A model generated the notes under the pieces. That model ran no database searches and had not been told where the DNA came from. It saw nothing but the letters and a program-made list of their open reading frames with translations. Below, one piece after another: positions 40,201 through 59,832 of a stretch of 64,000 bases of DNA (position 1 is its first letter; each line of letters opens with the position of its first letter). A program made the position numbers and the translations under genes. Source of the DNA: a virus; the IMG/VR virus record IMGVR_UViG_3300025030_000876, positions 1-64,000 of that record; one strand, given 5' to 3'.

Positions 40201-40424
40201 TGGACTACTCAGATATCTTCACTCGGCCTATCGAGGAAATAACGGATGATGAGATAATTCAGCGCGCTAGGGAGTTGCGAGAAAAGGGCCGATACCCAGT
40301 AATTGTTAAAACTCCAGTAGATAAAAAACCCAAGGCTAAAAAGAAAACGAAAGCTGAGGAACAATTAGAGGGTTTATTTAATCAAGCACAAAAATTAGCC
40401 GAGGCTAAGAAACAGGATGGGTGA
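40200..40424 (+). CDS. Small Lys-rich protein
   Basis: 74 residues; acidic N-half (EEITDDEIIQRARELREKGR), then a Lys-rich linker and a helix (KKKTKAEEQLEGLFNQAQKL). Overlaps the HNH gene by 8 bp. Unknown. Confidence 0.55.
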   Translation: MDYSDIFTRPIEEITDDEIIQRARELREKGRYPVIVKTPVDKKPKAKKKTKAEEQLEGLFNQAQKLAEAKKQDG

Positions 40425-41070
40425 ATGCACAGTAGATAATTGTAAAAATTATTCCTATGCTCTTGGGTATTGTAAACGCCACTGGAGGCAATTCCATATT
40501 TATGGTAAAATCTTACCTGCAGCAAAACGTGATCCTAATGAAATTAAGTCAGATGGAGATATTGCCTATATATTTTTATACAACTATAAGGGTATAAAAA
40601 TAGCAGAAGCAATAATTGACAACTCCGATGTGGATTTAATTAAAAATATAAAATGGTCTTGTGATAGCAAAAATTATGTGCGTAATGACAGGCTGGGGAG
40701 TCTACACCGTTATTTGCTAAAGCCAGCAAGAGGAGAAAAAGTAGATCATATAAATTGTTGTCCACTAGATAATAGAAGAAGCAATTTAAGAATTTGTACC
40801 ACTAAGGAAAATTCATGGAACCAAAGAGGAAGAAGTATAAGTGGATACAAAGGCGTATACAAAAATGGAGATGTGTTTCAAGTATCAATATGTAAAGATG
40901 GAAAAGTATACAATTTAGGAAGATTCAAATGTAAGAAAGCCGCGGCATACGCATACAACCAAGCAGCTATTAAGTATTTCGGTGAATTTGCGTTACTGAA
41001 TGTTATTGAGTACAACCAAGAGGCTAGTTATGTTAAATTTGAGCGCGTCACAAATAACGACCTTTTATGA
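40417..41070 (+). CDS. HNH homing endonuclease with AP2 domain
   Basis: 217 residues. An N-terminal Cys/His zinc segment (CTVDNCKNYSYALGYCKRHW) leads to an HNH core (KVDHINCCPLDNRRSNLRIC) and a C-terminal AP2 DNA-binding domain (YKGVYKNGDVFQVSICKDGK; AAYAYNQAAIKYFGEFALLN). The architecture is the same as the gene at 51765. It overlaps the RecB-like nuclease start by 41 bp and may have inserted there by homing. Confidence 0.85.
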   Translation: MGECTVDNCKNYSYALGYCKRHWRQFHIYGKILPAAKRDPNEIKSDGDIAYIFLYNYKGIKIAEAIIDNSDVDLIKNIKWSCDSKNYVRNDRLGSLHRYLLKPARGEKVDHINCCPLDNRRSNLRICTTKENSWNQRGRSISGYKGVYKNGDVFQVSICKDGKVYNLGRFKCKKAAAYAYNQAAIKYFGEFALLNVIEYNQEASYVKFERVTNNDLL

Positions 41071-49729: not shown

Positions 49730-50812
49730 ATGGCAAAGCCTAAGAAAAGAGAATTCCTGCAACTGGCTTTTACTTATAATCCTGCTAAACACAACATCAC
49801 CAATTGGCTAGTATCCGAGAAACTTGATGGGTGCAGAGCATTTTGGGATGGCAGGGTCTCCAGAGGTATGCTTTGCTCCGAAGTACCTTGGGCGAATACT
49901 CTCAAAGATAAAAAAGAGTTTACGGCAACGGGCTTATGGAGTCGTTATGGGAAACCCATTTTCGCCCCTGAATGGTTTCTAAACCAACTCCCGGTAGGAA
50001 TTCCACTTGACGGAGAACTCTTCGCCGGGAGGGGTAAACACCAGACGCTTAGAAGTGCCACGTCGAAGCATATTCCTATCGATAGCGAATGGCAGAAAGT
50101 TAAGTATTGCATCTTCGATTCGCCTAATTTGTGTGATGTTCTTTATAATTCTACAATTAACATTACTAACTTCCAGAAAACTATCTCAGGAATGCAAGAG
50201 TTTTTTATCGCTAATAATGAACCTCCTGCGCATCATGGGTGTAAGACTTATGCTCAAGTTTACCAGTATCTCCAAGACACTTGGATTTACCAACCAAACA
50301 TGGAACTTGTACTGCAAACCCCAATGCACATGATTGATGATATTGATACCATGCTGGCTGAGATTGTATCATCTGGCGGGGAAGGCCTAATTTGCAGAGA
50401 CCCTTATGCTTCTTATGTCCCTTGGCGTGCTCATTCAATGGTAAAACTTAAGCCTTCGTTGGATTCAGAAGCAGTTGTAGTGGGATACATCACAGGGCGT
50501 GAAACAGATAAAGGCTCTAAACTCCTTGGCCTCATGGGAGCAATGATTGTTGAATGGAGAGGCAAAAGATTTGAGCTTAGTGGCTTTACGGGTGAAGAAA
50601 GAACTCTGCATATATGCGAAGGCCCTTCCAGATATAACAAAGCAGTTGCATTCGATTGGGCAGCCGAAAATCCAGAAACTCGATGTCCTGGTTGGATTGA
50701 AGCAAAGCATTTCCCTAAAGGCTCTAAAGTGACCTTCTGCTACAGGGAACTCACAGATAAAGGGATTCCTAAGGAGGCGCGTTTCCTACGTCCTCGCGGA
50801 GACTTCGAGTAA
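49730..50812 (+). CDS. ATP-dependent DNA ligase
   Basis: 360 residues. Nucleotidyltransferase motifs are complete: I EKLDGCR with adenylated Lys31, III LDGELF, IIIa YCIFD, IV GGEGLICRD, V MVKLKP. An OB-fold C-terminal domain follows with motif VI-like KGIPKEARFLRPRGD. No BRCT or N-terminal extension, as in T7-type and other small phage ligases. It seals nicks in replication and recombination, and its stop overlaps the polymerase start. Confidence 0.9.
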   Translation: MAKPKKREFLQLAFTYNPAKHNITNWLVSEKLDGCRAFWDGRVSRGMLCSEVPWANTLKDKKEFTATGLWSRYGKPIFAPEWFLNQLPVGIPLDGELFAGRGKHQTLRSATSKHIPIDSEWQKVKYCIFDSPNLCDVLYNSTINITNFQKTISGMQEFFIANNEPPAHHGCKTYAQVYQYLQDTWIYQPNMELVLQTPMHMIDDIDTMLAEIVSSGGEGLICRDPYASYVPWRAHSMVKLKPSLDSEAVVVGYITGRETDKGSKLLGLMGAMIVEWRGKRFELSGFTGEERTLHICEGPSRYNKAVAFDWAAENPETRCPGWIEAKHFPKGSKVTFCYRELTDKGIPKEARFLRPRGDFE

Positions 50813-51756
50813 TGGTAAAAAACAAACTAAACCCATCTGCCCCGGTAGCAATCCTAGTTGGAACCCCAACCGCAGAGGATGATGTTAAGCGCAAACTTCT
50901 TAGCTGCAAAGCAGGGCAAAAGTTCCAATCATTCTTGAGTGCTAATGGGATTTTGCCAGATGATTGTAGTTACTTGTCGCTTGTATCCGAACGCCACCCT
51001 ACTTTGGATAGAATCCGCCCAGATGAACTACTTTGCTGGCAGGAACTAACTCGTAGAGACATAGTTAAAATCAATCCCAATATTGTGTTGGCTGTTGGCG
51101 AACTTCCATTTAAGTTCCTAACTGGCCTTAGTGACCATTACTCCTATAGAGGTTATATTTGTAAACCACTTATGGGAGATTTCAAAGTTCTTTGCATTTG
51201 GGATTATAGCAACTTCTTCTCTAATCCAGAATGGAATCCATTAACTCACTGGGATGCAGCAAAAGTAAAAGAGCATATGCATACCAAAGACCCAATGTAT
51301 AATAAAGTAGAAGTAATAGTCACCCATAATCTGCAATTAATTATGGACGAGTTTCTTAGCGAAGAGTACATAAATAATCCAGACAGCATGTTATCTTTCG
51401 ACATTGAGTGTAATAAGCAAGAATTAACTTGTATTGGATTCGCTAAAGAGACAAATAAGGCTTATGTAATTCCGTTGAACAAAATGCATTCCGGTGAATA
51501 TGCCAGAGCAATTAGGGTTATTAATGCTGTGCTTAAATCACCAGTCAAGAAGGTAGCCCAGAATGGGTCGTTTGATATAACATATCTTGCATACTACAAC
51601 AATATCCAAGTTAATAATTTCGCATTCGATACTATGCTAGCGATGCACTCAATGTATTCAAATCTCCCGAAAGGACTTGGTGTTCTTGGGTCTGTGTTTA
51701 CTAATTGCGAACCCTGGAAAATGAACAAAGGTGATGACTCAGATGATTTTAAGTAG
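50812..51756 (+). CDS. DNA polymerase A, N-terminal fragment (UDG-like plus 3'-5' exonuclease part)
   Basis: 314 residues. Residues about 10-150 resemble the uracil-DNA glycosylase fold fused to several phage PolA enzymes (APVAILVGTPTAEDDVKRKL; VLAVGELPFKFLTG). From about 190 begins the 3'-5' exonuclease with ExoI SFDIECN (about 196-198) and ExoII AQNGSFDI. The frame stops at KGDDSDDFK, before ExoIII; that motif is in the downstream fragment. So the exonuclease active site is shared by two proteins that must assemble. Confidence 0.82.
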   Translation: MVKNKLNPSAPVAILVGTPTAEDDVKRKLLSCKAGQKFQSFLSANGILPDDCSYLSLVSERHPTLDRIRPDELLCWQELTRRDIVKINPNIVLAVGELPFKFLTGLSDHYSYRGYICKPLMGDFKVLCIWDYSNFFSNPEWNPLTHWDAAKVKEHMHTKDPMYNKVEVIVTHNLQLIMDEFLSEEYINNPDSMLSFDIECNKQELTCIGFAKETNKAYVIPLNKMHSGEYARAIRVINAVLKSPVKKVAQNGSFDITYLAYYNNIQVNNFAFDTMLAMHSMYSNLPKGLGVLGSVFTNCEPWKMNKGDDSDDFK

Positions 51757-51764
51757 GAGTTTTT

Positions 51765-52376
51765 ATGGCTAAATGCTCAGTGGAAAATTGTGAATCAAAT
51801 ATACTAGCTAAACAATTATGTAGCAAGCATTATCAGCAAAAATATATTTATGGTGGTATTCGACGAACTAAATTTGACCCAAACGAAATTTTGGAATACG
51901 ATAGTCATGCTGAGATAAAGCTCTATGATGCTAAAGGCAACCATATAGCATCGACGTTAATTGATTTAGATGATTCTCAAAGAGCCAGAAAATATAAATG
52001 GTATTTAAGCGGTGGATATGTGAAGACCCAGGATGGTCTAACCCTAGCTGATTATATTATGAGAAAACCTAGGGAAATGTATATTGACCATGCGAACAGG
52101 AATACATTAGATAACAGAAAATCAAATCTGCGAATATGTACTGCTGGGCAAAATAACTGTAATAAGCCCAATTGTGGTAATAGACAATCTAAATACAAAG
52201 GTGTTCACTATAATGGATATTCCTGGTGTGCATTTATTTACAAAGGAAAGTCTTATTATATAGGTAGTTATAATTCTGAAATTGAAGCAGCAAGAGCTTA
52301 TGATATTAAAGCTATAGAATTACATGGCGAATTTGCTTATTTGAATTTCCCGGAGGACTATGATGGCAAAGATTGA
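51765..52376 (+). CDS. HNH/AP2 homing endonuclease splitting the polymerase gene
   Basis: 203 residues with the same layout as the gene at 40417: zinc segment CSVENCESNILAKQLCSKHY, HNH core YIDHANRNTLDNRKSNLRIC, and AP2 domain YKGVHYNGYSWCAFIYKGKS. It starts eight bases after the stop of the polymerase N-part (RBS TAGGAG) and overlaps the C-part by 17 bp. There is no space for a self-splicing intron, so this is a free-standing homing gene that created two polymerase cistrons. Confidence 0.88.
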   Translation: MAKCSVENCESNILAKQLCSKHYQQKYIYGGIRRTKFDPNEILEYDSHAEIKLYDAKGNHIASTLIDLDDSQRARKYKWYLSGGYVKTQDGLTLADYIMRKPREMYIDHANRNTLDNRKSNLRICTAGQNNCNKPNCGNRQSKYKGVHYNGYSWCAFIYKGKSYYIGSYNSEIEAARAYDIKAIELHGEFAYLNFPEDYDGKD

Positions 52377-53727
52377 TTTTTCAGCACAAAGTAATGCAAA
52401 CTTTGACTGGGAGGCATTTTACCGATACAATGGCCGCGATGCTGCTAATACTCTTGCTATTGCATTAGTAGAAAAGGATTTGTTGAAAGTCCGAGGAACT
52501 GAAGCAACCTTTGCCCAAGAAATGGCATTGACTTATCCTTTGATTACTGCTGAATGTATTGGAATCAAAGTAGACCCAGCAAAGATTGAAGAGTTGTCAG
52601 AGCAAATTAGTGAAATTATTCGTAAATGGAAATTATATATTCAAACTCTTGTTGGCTACGATATTAATCCCAACTCATCCCAGCAACTACAAGAGTATCT
52701 TTATGATAGACTCAAATATCCCAAGCGAGTAAAGAAAGGTAAAATTACTGTTGATGTTGATGCTTTGATTAGCTTGATTCCATATAACCCAGTGCTAATT
52801 AAGCCTATTGCAATTTATCGCAAACTAATAAAGGAGTATTCTTTCTACAAAGTAAAAGTTGGTGAAGACGGGCGCGTTAGAACAACACTCAAACCAGCAG
52901 GCACAGAAACAGGACGATTAGCATCTAGTAAGAGTATTACTGGAACTGGCACGAACTTGCAGAATCAACCTAAGATTGTACGACAGATTTATATCCCCGA
53001 TGAGGGAAATATATTCCTCCAAGTTGATTACGGTAAGGCCGAGAGTTGGTTGGTGGCATACATGGCCCAAGACCAAAAGATGCTTGATGCATTACGTGGG
53101 CCAGATTTTCACAGTACAAACGCTTCTAACTTCCTAGGCCGCCCAGTTACTAAAGCAGATTATGCTGACAGACAAATCGGCAAAAAGGTAAGCCACGCAA
53201 GAAACTACCGAATGACAGCTTTCTTGCTTCAAAAGGTGATGCTACGGGAGGGATTCAATCTATCTAAGTCAGATTGCCAAGATTTGTTAGACAAATATGA
53301 CAGAAGCTACCCAAACATCAAGAATGTATACCACAAATGGGTAGAAGAGCAATTACGTAGAGATATGACAATAGCTAATGCTTTTGGGAGAAAGATAACA
53401 TATTTTGGTTTCTGGAACGATGCGTTACTTAATGCCGCTACTGCGTTTTATCCACAATCAACAGTCGGTGATATGACCAACAAAGCATTGATTAATCTAT
53501 ATGAACAATTTAGAAATAGGCCAGTGTGGGTTAATCTGCAAGTACATGACTCTATTCTACTCCAAATGCCAAAAGCATACTTAACTTGGGATTTGATTGA
53601 TGAGATTAGAGGATGTATGGCTGTTCCATTAACAGTACGTGGCGAAACATTTACTATCGGAGTAGATTTTGAGGCAGGGTATGATTGGTATCACTTAGAC
53701 GATCTAAGCAAACATCTGCCTGCTTAA
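52360..53727 (+). CDS. DNA polymerase A, C-terminal fragment (polymerase domain)
   Basis: 455 residues from ATG-ATG at 52360. It begins inside the exonuclease: ExoIII YRYNGRDA (about 22-29). Polymerase motif A is LQVDYGKAESWLVAYM, motif B RQIGKKVSHARNYRM (Arg, Lys and Tyr conserved; the nucleotide-selecting position aligned with E. coli Phe762 is His), and motif C LQVHDSIL. The replicative activity looks intact. Its first residues (AKIDFSAQ) probably derive from the insertion, and homology resumes near SNANFDWEAF. Confidence 0.9.
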   Translation: MMAKIDFSAQSNANFDWEAFYRYNGRDAANTLAIALVEKDLLKVRGTEATFAQEMALTYPLITAECIGIKVDPAKIEELSEQISEIIRKWKLYIQTLVGYDINPNSSQQLQEYLYDRLKYPKRVKKGKITVDVDALISLIPYNPVLIKPIAIYRKLIKEYSFYKVKVGEDGRVRTTLKPAGTETGRLASSKSITGTGTNLQNQPKIVRQIYIPDEGNIFLQVDYGKAESWLVAYMAQDQKMLDALRGPDFHSTNASNFLGRPVTKADYADRQIGKKVSHARNYRMTAFLLQKVMLREGFNLSKSDCQDLLDKYDRSYPNIKNVYHKWVEEQLRRDMTIANAFGRKITYFGFWNDALLNAATAFYPQSTVGDMTNKALINLYEQFRNRPVWVNLQVHDSILLQMPKAYLTWDLIDEIRGCMAVPLTVRGETFTIGVDFEAGYDWYHLDDLSKHLPA

Positions 53728-53767
53728 TGTTGTTTAAATAATTCTGTCAACCTAAGTATTTTCTGTC

Positions 53768-53796
53768 TTGATAACTACGGGTTTAATTGGTATAAT
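53768..53796 (+). promoter_or_regulatory. Strong sigma70 promoter
   Basis: TTGATA (53768-53773), exactly 17 bp, TATAAT (53791-53796); five and six matches to consensus. It lies in the only sizeable gap of this gene block and starts transcription near 53803, 20 bases before the kinase gene. Confidence 0.8.
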
Positions 53797-53823
53797 TAAC
53801 TATACTTCACAAGGAGAACTGCT

Positions 53824-56553: not shown

Positions 56554-56749
56554 ATGGCTAGAAGATTCCCATGATTGTGAAACTTGCGGATATTCGTATT
56601 CCTATGGGGCTAAAGTAACTTTAGACGATGTAGTTATCCTAGATGACTTCGAGAAAGCTCATTGTTACGGTGGCTCGGATGTAACTCCTGAAGATATCCT
56701 TAAAGCTCTTTGCAAACATCTCAATATTGAAATCCGGGAGATTTATTAA
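56537..56749 (+). CDS. Small protein before NrdJ
   Basis: 70 residues from ATG 56537 (GAGGAGCC upstream): CETCGYSYSYGAKVTLDDVV then DVTPEDILKALCKHLNIEI. One CxxC. Its stop overlaps the NrdJ start (TAATG), so it is translationally coupled to the reductase. Function unknown; possibly a reductant or partner. Confidence 0.6.
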   Translation: MKLVIKWLEDSHDCETCGYSYSYGAKVTLDDVVILDDFEKAHCYGGSDVTPEDILKALCKHLNIEIREIY

Positions 56750-59700
56750 TGAAGTTAACTGACCGTGCTGAAACAGTTGCTAAGCTCCGAATCTTTGCAA
56801 AAGATGCTACTGGCAACTGTATCGAAGATTTCGATGGAATGTGCCATAGGGTTGCAAAGCATCTTGCAAATTCCGAAGAAGAAGAAAAAGACTTATTCTG
56901 GGTGATGAATAATCTTTTGTTTTTGCCTAATAGTCCTTGCTTGGTAAATGCAGGAGCTAAAGGACGTAAGAATCAACTCAGTGCTTGCTTTGTTTTAAGC
57001 GTAGAAGATTCTATCGAAGACATCTATGACACCATCAAAGAAACCGCATTGATTCACAAAACCGGCGGAGGTACGGGTTTCAATTTTAGTAAAATCCGCC
57101 CGAAAGATTCCAACGTAGCCTCAACTGGTGGCGTTGCTTCTGGCCCGGTTAGTTTCATGAAAGTCTTTGATGCTTCCACGGATGGCATCAAGCAAGGCGG
57201 AGTTCGTAGGGGTGCGAATATGGGAGTTCTCCGTGTTGACCATCCTGATATCCTAGACTTTGTTAATTGTAAACGCGGGAAGAATGCACTACAGAACTTT
57301 AACATCTCAGTAGCAATCACTGATGAATTCATGGAAGCTAAGCTCAAAGGTAATGAGTTTACTTTGGTTAATCCCAAAACCAAAGAGAAGACTTCTATCA
57401 GTGCTAAGACCATCTGGGATGCGATAGTAGATAACGCTTGGAATTCAGCAGACCCAGGTGTACTGTTTATCGACCGAATCAACGAGCACAATCCCCTGAC
57501 CGGAGTTAGTAGTATAATCGAAGCTACTAATCCTTGTGTTTCTGGAGATACCTTAGTATTAACTGATAATGGATACATTCGCATTGATGAGCTTGTTGGT
57601 AAACCAGTTAATATTTGGAATGGTTATAGATTTTCTAAAGTTACTCCGCAGATAACAGGAACAAACCAGAAGATGGTAACTGTGGAGCTAAGCGATGGTA
57701 ACAAACTCACATGCACAGAATATCATAAATTCATTGCTTGGAAAGGAACTGTCGCAGCCAAGGATTTGCAAATTGGGGATAAATTAATCAAATGGAATTA
57801 TCCGGTAATTGAGGGCAATACTACGCTGCCAAGGTCTTATGCTTACACTACGGGTTTCTTTTGTGGAGATGGTTCGCAAGAAACTACTAGAGACAGGAAT
57901 TCTATCTGGCTTTATGGAGACAAAATAGCTTTGTTGGACCATTTGGAATACGCTACGTACAATGAATGCGCAAATGACCGGTTGTTTGTTAAGATGCGTC
58001 CTAGCGTGTTTGATAAACAATTTGTACCAGACACTAATTATTCAATACAAACCAGGTTAGATTATCTGGCTGGGCTAATTGATTCTGATGGTACTCTCAA
58101 CGACAAAGGAGGAAGTATAGCTCTTTGGTCTAATGATAATACCTTCATTACCAAAGTAAAATACATGCTCCATACTCTTGGCATTAATTGTTCAGTATCT
58201 ATCGGCACTTCTGGTGGAAGTAAATCAATGCCTAATGGCAAAGGAGGGCATAAAGAATATAATACTCAGGATTGTTTTCGGCTGGTAATAAGTGCTTACA
58301 ATGTGATGAAGTTACGTGAATTAGGCTTGGCTACAAATAGAGTGGCTGTAGATGCCAAACCTAATAGAAGCTCGGCCAGAGCAATATATGTAAAATCTGT
58401 CGAAACTTCTGGTATCGCTGATGTTGTTTATTGTTTTACTGAGCCATTTAATCATACTGGTGTGTTTAATGGTATGATGACAGGGCAGTGCGGAGAACAA
58501 CCATTAGCGCCTGGAGAAGCATGCGGGCTTGGAAGCATCAATCTAGCAGAAGTTATCAAAGACTACGGCATCGACTACGACAAACTAAAAAAGATAACTC
58601 GTATTGGCGTTTTGCTTCTCAATCGCATGATGACTAAGAGCGAATACCCTAACAAGAAGATAGCTGAACGCGTTAACGCTTCTCGTAAAATCGGCCTCGG
58701 CGTAATGGGTTTCGCTGACATGCTTATCAAGATGCGTATCCCGTATACTTCCCAAGACGCTCAAGAAGTTGCAGGGAACATTGCTCAGTGCATCTTGGAT
58801 ACTTGTGTTAAAGCAACCCACGAGCTAGGAACCAAAGAAGGCGTGTTTCCTTTGTTCAAATCAGAATACAAAATGCCGGGACATATTAAGGAATCTCTCA
58901 AGAGACTGAAGATTAAGCCTAGCGATTACAAACCGGCAAATAGCACACTTACAACCATCGCGCCAACAGGAACGCTTAGCATCATTGCTAATTGCTCCAG
59001 CGGGATTGAACCTATTTTTCATTTTGAACAAACAGAACGTAGAGTTGATATGGAGATTGTCCATACCCATCCTTTGTATGCAGCCTATAAAGAAAAGTTC
59101 CCTAAATGTGACATGCCACATTACTTTCAAGAACTTGCCGATATCGACGTAGATACACATGTCTATATCCAAGCAACATTCCAGAAGTATATTTGCAGCG
59201 GGGTTAGTAAAACAGCAAATCTTCCTCATGACGCAACAAAACAAGACGTTGAGAAAGTCTACCGTGAAGCGTTTATTCTTGGCTGTAAAGGAGTGACCGT
59301 CTACCGTGATGGTTGCTTGGAGAATCAAGTAATCTCAGGGAAGGATTCTAAAGGCTTTACCATTGCAACAGAAATCCTACCAGAACCTAGGCCCGAAGCA
59401 CTTAGCGGTATCACCTATGAAATCAAGACTGGCTTTGGGCCGATGTTGGTAACGGTGAATTATAAAGATGGGAAGCCATTTGAAGTCATCTGCCAACTAG
59501 GTAAAAGCGGCGCGAGTGAAGCAGCTAAGGCAGAAGCGATTAGTAGGCTTTGTAGTATACTACTGCGTTGTAATGTACCTCCAAAAGTCATTGTGGAACA
59601 ACTTGAAGGGATTGTTGGCAGCGAAAGCATCCATACCAAATACGGACTTGTTACTTCCATCCCTGATGCTCTTAGTAAAATCATGATTAATCATGTGCTT

Positions 59701-59832
59701 ACTAAGGAAGAATATAACCCGACCATTCCAACCATGATAAAATGCCCAGACTGCGGAAAGTTCAATACCATGATTAAAGAAGGTAGTTGCTCCACTTGCC
59801 AGAACTGTGGCTTCAAGTCATGTGGAGGCTAA
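56749..59832 (+). CDS. nrdJ: Adenosylcobalamin-dependent ribonucleotide reductase (class II) with intein
   Basis: 1027 residues before splicing and 709 after removal of a 318-residue intein (residues 263-580). NrdJ features: FLPNSPCLVNAG and QLSACFVLSVEDS near the N-terminus, GGGTGFNFSKIRP, ATNP-CGE around the radical site, APTGTLSIIANCSSGIEP, VTVYRDGC, and a C-terminal Cys-rich tail (CPDCGKFN...CQNCGFKSCGG). It makes dNTP precursors with B12 and needs no oxygen or separate radical subunit. The extein joins at Cys263/581, the catalytic thiyl radical cysteine. Confidence 0.93.
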   Translation: MKLTDRAETVAKLRIFAKDATGNCIEDFDGMCHRVAKHLANSEEEEKDLFWVMNNLLFLPNSPCLVNAGAKGRKNQLSACFVLSVEDSIEDIYDTIKETALIHKTGGGTGFNFSKIRPKDSNVASTGGVASGPVSFMKVFDASTDGIKQGGVRRGANMGVLRVDHPDILDFVNCKRGKNALQNFNISVAITDEFMEAKLKGNEFTLVNPKTKEKTSISAKTIWDAIVDNAWNSADPGVLFIDRINEHNPLTGVSSIIEATNPCVSGDTLVLTDNGYIRIDELVGKPVNIWNGYRFSKVTPQITGTNQKMVTVELSDGNKLTCTEYHKFIAWKGTVAAKDLQIGDKLIKWNYPVIEGNTTLPRSYAYTTGFFCGDGSQETTRDRNSIWLYGDKIALLDHLEYATYNECANDRLFVKMRPSVFDKQFVPDTNYSIQTRLDYLAGLIDSDGTLNDKGGSIALWSNDNTFITKVKYMLHTLGINCSVSIGTSGGSKSMPNGKGGHKEYNTQDCFRLVISAYNVMKLRELGLATNRVAVDAKPNRSSARAIYVKSVETSGIADVVYCFTEPFNHTGVFNGMMTGQCGEQPLAPGEACGLGSINLAEVIKDYGIDYDKLKKITRIGVLLLNRMMTKSEYPNKKIAERVNASRKIGLGVMGFADMLIKMRIPYTSQDAQEVAGNIAQCILDTCVKATHELGTKEGVFPLFKSEYKMPGHIKESLKRLKIKPSDYKPANSTLTTIAPTGTLSIIANCSSGIEPIFHFEQTERRVDMEIVHTHPLYAAYKEKFPKCDMPHYFQELADIDVDTHVYIQATFQKYICSGVSKTANLPHDATKQDVEKVYREAFILGCKGVTVYRDGCLENQVISGKDSKGFTIATEILPEPRPEALSGITYEIKTGFGPMLVTVNYKDGKPFEVICQLGKSGASEAAKAEAISRLCSILLRCNVPPKVIVEQLEGIVGSESIHTKYGLVTSIPDALSKIMINHVLTKEEYNPTIPTMIKCPDCGKFNTMIKEGSCSTCQNCGFKSCGG
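57535..58488 (+). mobile_element. LAGLIDADG intein within NrdJ
   Basis: 318 residues. Block A starts CVSGDTLVLTDNGYIRIDEL, block B has TCTEYHKF, and the endonuclease motifs are FFCGDGSQ and LAGLIDSDGT. Block F is EPFNHTGVFNG, and the end is MMTGQ followed by Cys+1. The last intein residue is Gln rather than Asn, and the penultimate residue is Gly rather than His. It sits in NPCGE, the most conserved site of the enzyme, as is typical of inteins. Confidence 0.92.

Follow-up and report, generated by a model that had tools for sequence, protein, structure and literature searches.

We analyzed a 64,000-nt stretch of DNA from an uncultured phage (IMG/VR record IMGVR_UViG_3300025030_000876, positions 1-64,000; hereafter the window) and found that its PolA-type DNA polymerase is encoded as two open reading frames (ORFs) with a complete HNH/AP2 homing endonuclease gene between them. 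The full record has 64,675 bases, is classed as "linear" in IMG/VR and may be incomplete. The ORFs and their alignments indicate that this phage very likely has a composite two-chain polymerase. We favor the explanation that it is a two-subunit PolA made from adjacent genes, and that a free-standing HNH gene most likely entered a junction that was already split; on balance we consider this account probable. The break lies between the ExoII and ExoIII motifs of the exonuclease domain. More than 100 other phage sequences are split at this same loop, which points to a recurring design; damage from the HNH insertion in the window is probably not the whole explanation. The polymerase locus is organized as follows:

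50812-51756, plus strand: N chain of the polymerase, 314 aa; a uracil-DNA glycosylase (UDG)-like domain, then ExoI (D197, E199) and ExoII (D255), with the C-terminal end WKMNKGDDSDDFK followed by the stop.
51757-51764, plus strand: 8-nt gap (GAGTTTTT), which together with the stop codon gives TAGGAG, a putative ribosome-binding site (RBS) of the HNH gene.
51765-52376, plus strand: free-standing HNH/AP2 homing endonuclease gene, 203 aa; N-terminal CxxxxC...CxxH motif, HNH at about residues 102-131 and AP2 at 142-188.
52350-52376, plus strand: GGAGG and ATGATG of the C chain, within the 3′ end of the HNH frame; the two genes overlap by 17 nt.
52360-53727, plus strand: C chain of the polymerase, 455 aa; a 22-residue leader, ExoIII (Y23, D27) and the PolA domain with motif A (D223) and motif C (H396/D397).

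In alignments with uninterrupted homologues, the N chain carries ExoI (D, E) and ExoII (D), and ExoIII (Y, D) falls on the C chain, bearing out the position of the break given in an earlier note on this DNA. All exonuclease catalytic residues and the residues of motifs A, B and C are kept across the two chains, and both frames are fully open. In Pfam searches, the N chain matched UDG (PF03167, E 1e-5) and the exonuclease family PF01612 (E 5.8e-7), the latter over profile positions 4-109 of 173 only, and the C chain matched DNA_pol_A (PF00476, E 1.9e-46). The alignment of the C chain to the Klenow fragment begins at chain residue 170, just ahead of ExoIII, the position of which in Klenow we take to be established. 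If the gene is functional, an exonuclease site composed from two chains, as the earlier note proposed, would follow.

The same note called the enzyme a UDG-fused PolA. This holds for the fold, but the N chain has fold similarity only and lacks the motifs of a family-4 uracil-DNA glycosylase, with GExPG degenerate to GTPTA and HPS to DYS. Glycosylase activity of the N chain is therefore not to be assumed.

To place the break in a structure, we used an AlphaFold2 model of an intact homologue (L018; predicted local distance difference test score, pLDDT, 90). The break falls in the segment that connects helix 317-324 to the long ExoIII helix at 343-371. Modelled alone, the C chain of the window gave a confident PolA polymerase fold, with matches in PDB at E 1e-22, and residues 1-37, including ExoIII, had pLDDT below 50. 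Such low confidence is what we would expect if that helix requires the N chain, although it is no proof.

Each of the three genes has a start codon and a Shine-Dalgarno-like site. The N ORF ends in TAG and is followed after 8 nt by the ATG of the HNH gene; the HNH stop codon lies at 52374-52376, downstream of the C ORF start. The ATGATG of the C gene is preceded within a few nucleotides by GGAGG, both inside the HNH frame. The layout is thus as first described, that is, a complete HNH/AP2 gene with its own RBS, eight bases after the first stop and overlapping the C part. At the junctions, scans for promoters and terminators and predictions of RNA folding returned no signal beyond chance, and no mobE-type sequestering hairpin was apparent.

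Profile scans of viral contigs revealed more than 100 viral loci in which the exonuclease N part and the ExoIII-polymerase part are in different ORFs, split at the same ExoII-ExoIII linker. This count excludes the window and one false call, and includes a few contigs duplicated under different locus ids. One scan used split sequences as query, so the sample is enriched for splits and we therefore claim no prevalence. The cultured Caulobacter phage Kuura (OQ067476.1) is also split at this linker, with two small ORFs in between. Its gene Kuura_029 (L007, 2279-3388), annotated as "hypothetical protein", is the UDG-like and exonuclease half of the Kuura polymerase. Serbin (L011) was flagged as split by the script only because the exonuclease profile missed it, and L205, which has overlapping frames within an intact clade, was not counted as an independent split as it may represent a frameshift or sequencing error.

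Across the split loci, the slot between the two chains varies in content, and a homing nuclease is seldom recognizable in it. In marine phages, the slot holds an unknown protein of about 95 aa and then DUF3310 or DUF6378; elsewhere it holds DUF1937, unrelated ORFs, an HNH_3 protein or nothing. An HNH was detected in the slot of L223 (HNH_3, E 2.8e-8) and weakly in L217 and L229. Homing genes are thus occasional tenants of the slot. The earlier note had regarded the break site as exceptional and had named the HNH gene as the agent that split the polymerase; neither claim is supported as stated, given that the other contigs and Kuura are split there with other genes or none.

Three loci (L209, L216 and L232) have an empty slot, with the stop of the N gene and the start of the C gene sharing the sequence ATGA. 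The conserved IKR(D/E) tail of their N chains encodes AAGAGGG, likely the Shine-Dalgarno sequence of the C gene, and the conservation of this tail in the protein may reflect the RNA signal. The AAGAGGG tail is kept in L228 and L234 despite another stretch now lying between the chains. The simplest reading of the split clade is that coupled two-gene polymerases preceded the slot genes. Pairs within this clade have a ratio of nonsynonymous to synonymous substitution (dN/dS) of about 0.05-0.2 in both chains, indicating purifying selection, and nine split records, including the complete genome of Kuura, have a single PolA gene. Because of the low dN/dS and the single gene, we strongly infer that two-chain enzymes of the same design are functional somewhere; for the window itself, function would follow by homology.

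The dimensions of the junction in the window match those of the other splits. Its N-chain tail, counted from the WK Trp up to the stop, has 13 residues (13-17 in 20 other splits), and its C-chain leader, from the Met to the ExoIII Tyr, has 22 (21-25). In intact proteins the whole linker has a median length of 19 residues (range 11-22, with one of 38), which makes the junction of the window about 16 residues longer. Just upstream of the junction, the Gly of an "LGS" motif is found in 31/31 split-clade members, in the window and in L196, compared to 0/49 intact proteins. Based on the junction dimensions and this Gly, the window looks like a settled two-chain enzyme rather than a freshly broken gene.

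Most of the split loci belong to a single clade. In the tree, 31 dereplicated split sequences make up this clade (100 by the Shimodaira-Hasegawa-like approximate likelihood ratio test, SH-aLRT), which is sister to mostly intact homologues. L196 (3704-6521) is split at the same linker and has the LGS Gly, yet is nested in an otherwise intact group, making it a candidate independent split. Scoring the halves against the clades with hidden Markov models was suggestive but is biased by clade size, and we therefore used approximately unbiased (AU) tests. The N chain alone favors the split clade (12.8 log-likelihood units better when held together; AU p 0.80), whereas the C chain by itself is drawn toward the intact group (AU p 0.144 for the split clade). 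Thin sampling did not reject a constrained placement of the window within the split clade (p 0.60); with dense sampling the result was borderline (p 0.0535), at a cost of 16 log-likelihood units. Single-sequence scans of viral contigs found no close relatives of either chain, whether carrying or lacking the HNH gene, to define its empty site.

Several observations weigh against the two-subunit account with late entry of the HNH gene, and most of them would suit a split that the HNH gene itself caused. By that explanation, ectopic insertion of the HNH/AP2 gene into the exonuclease linker broke an intact UDG-exonuclease-PolA gene, creating a stop and a new start, and the halves reassemble. The C chain of the window is nearest by identity to intact polymerases (37% to L018) and the window groups with them weakly in the tree (support 71); forcing it into the split clade is costly under dense sampling, as given above. 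The C chain also lacks an insertion of about 25 aa (VWPxLxWTGD..YRH, before motif B) that is common to the aligned split-clade members; given this absence and the mixed results of the AU tests, we do not file the window as a member of that clade. Together with the weak grouping, the absence would fit an independent, HNH-caused split. L196 provides a precedent for independent splitting at the linker, and the likeness of the junction in the window to other splits could be convergent. However, the junction exceeds intact linkers by about 16 residues and is proportioned like that of a settled two-chain enzyme. The window also has the marker Gly, its N chain favors the split clade, and the C gene has its own RBS and start within the 3′ end of the HNH gene. 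We consider an HNH-caused split possible, though less likely than late entry. A further, tentative explanation takes up the divided preference of the chains. The ExoII-ExoIII linker would be a hot spot at which conversion to two subunits occurred at least three times independently (in the large clade, L196 and the window), with the Gly/Trp signature and longer chain ends arising each time. Once separate, the chains may have been exchanged between lineages, with promotion by homing genes that settle at the junction; the differing affinities of the two chains of the window (split clade for the N chain, intact relatives for the C chain) suggest such exchange.

We weighed two other explanations. 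One is that the halves are joined at the level of RNA or protein, whether by splicing of a cryptic group I intron, by translational bypassing or through a split intein. Phage polymerases offer established precedents in SPO1-like introns: the SPO1-type polymerase gene, which shares with the window the order of UDG-like, exonuclease and PolA domains, carries its HNH (I-HmuI) within a self-splicing group I intron, and its product is a single polypeptide. The PolB split intein of MIJ3 is another precedent (PMC6892783). In the window, by contrast with SPO1-type genes, no intron was found: Rfam gave no intron at gathering level over the whole window, relaxing the threshold to E<=10 over 50700-53800 gave none either, and no group I intron core of the I-HmuI type surrounds the HNH ORF. 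Only 8 bases between the N and HNH genes lie outside ORFs, and the C gene starts from a separate RBS and ATG, in line with the earlier claim that no intron can be spliced out. A Pfam search found no intein domains on the N, HNH or C proteins, and hence no splicing domains at the chain ends, though the same search did find the intein of a neighboring reductase. We regard joining of the halves as very improbable. It is also highly improbable that the polymerase is a dying gene and that the phage relies on the host polymerase or on one absent from the record. The record is not proven complete and the window sits on a long branch, but the frames are fully open, every checked catalytic residue is kept, and polymerases of this architecture in other phages are under purifying selection. 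An intact second polymerase gene would have undercut the earlier note; the 64,675-base record, which is possibly incomplete, contains no second PolA and no PolB. With no intron, intein or second polymerase found, two polypeptides would have to form the polymerase and the exonuclease site.

In the two-subunit mechanism that we favor, the N and C chains would each be translated from their own start and would associate, with the exonuclease active site completed across the chain interface. The N chain would supply the UDG-like domain and most of the exonuclease fold, and the C chain the ExoIII helix and the polymerase. Lodged at the subunit junction, the HNH gene would break no folded unit and could be co-transcribed and translationally coupled. 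Its arrival would have followed the split rather than caused it. The grounds for this order are the junction geometry, the RBS and start of the C gene inside the 3′ end of the HNH gene, and the relatives in which the polymerase is divided at this linker with different genes, or nothing, in the slot.

The middle protein matched HNH_3 in Pfam above the cut-off (E 2.1e-6) and AP2 below the curated cut-off (E 9.4e-5), with the AP2 assignment also backed by PHROG matches and by AP2 chains in PDB. It thus combines an HNH motif with a DNA-binding domain outside any intron or intein, as expected of a free-standing HNH homing endonuclease. The G+C content of its gene is 33.7%, compared to about 39% in the polymerase halves, and its nearest relatives found are free-standing genes lying between other genes. 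The window contains a paralogue outside the polymerase locus:

40417-41070, plus strand: paralogous HNH/AP2 gene, 217 aa, 41% identical, at another gene junction.

This paralogue overlaps both of its neighbors, and its 3′ end runs into the start region of a PD-(D/E)XK/Cas4-like gene downstream. Its position at another junction is evidence for the free-standing habit of the family. At the polymerase, this habit, with the HNH frame ending within the RBS and start of the C gene, would suit insertion beside an existing gene start. The HNH gene is very likely a free-standing tenant of the polymerase junction. Separately, the gene for the ribonucleotide reductase large subunit (56749-59832) contains an intein at about 57556-58476 with a LAGLIDADG homing endonuclease (PF14890, PF14528). 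With this intein and the two HNH/AP2 genes, the genome has at least three homing elements.

Among described phages, Kuura is split at the same linker as the window, with a UDG-like and exonuclease N gene and an ExoIII and polymerase C gene (OQ067476.1; PMC9959647). It differs in the two small ORFs in its slot, neither of them HNH, and in a C chain with the split-clade insertion. Where the Kuura paper discusses the polymerase, the split is not mentioned (PMC9959647). That split polymerases are known in T4-like phages, as the earlier note stated, agrees with the literature. In Aeromonas phages 25 and 44RR, gene 43 (PolB) is split and its halves co-purify and are active; the phage 25 junction holds a homing endonuclease gene, and a review suggests that the split may have preceded its arrival (PMC2988022). 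These phages share with the window a replicative polymerase in two genes and, in phage 25, a homing gene at the junction, whereas the polymerase is of family B, the endonuclease is GIY-YIG (seg) and the phages are T4-like. In phage Aeh1, the free-standing HNH gene mobE lies between the halves of the essential, still working nrdA (PMC2988022). The placement resembles that of the HNH gene in the window, but the split enzyme is a ribonucleotide reductase and the mobE family lacks the AP2 arrangement.

In the OM43 phages MEP401/402, a small ORF separates the two ORFs that encode PolA (PMC10580990). Vibrio phage VS-ABTNL-3 likewise has PolA as two ORFs around a small ORF. Unlike in the window, these breaks fall in the polymerase domain before motif A, leaving the exonuclease whole on the first chain. 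The VS-ABTNL-3 gene (L008, MF497422.1, 3710-6844) is split by a 184-aa phrog_8380-like ORF, apparently at the MEP401/402 site. We rejected a Felix O1-like phage as a parallel, as its HNH is beside the polymerase at the downstream end and not at the ExoII-ExoIII site.

In the open-access literature searched, with subscription papers outside its scope, we found no description of a split between ExoII and ExoIII. The widespread splitting of PolA at this one site is more interesting than the single insertion in the window. There is also a warning for annotation, in that the exonuclease half of such polymerases is missed, as with the Kuura N chain labelled hypothetical. The locus offers a clear case for asking whether the split gene or the homing gene comes first, and such enzymes offer natural two-chain pairs in which to study the coupling of proofreading to synthesis. 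Should the chains assemble as we propose, a proofreading site that spans two proteins would be no peculiarity of one genome but a standard solution in many phages.

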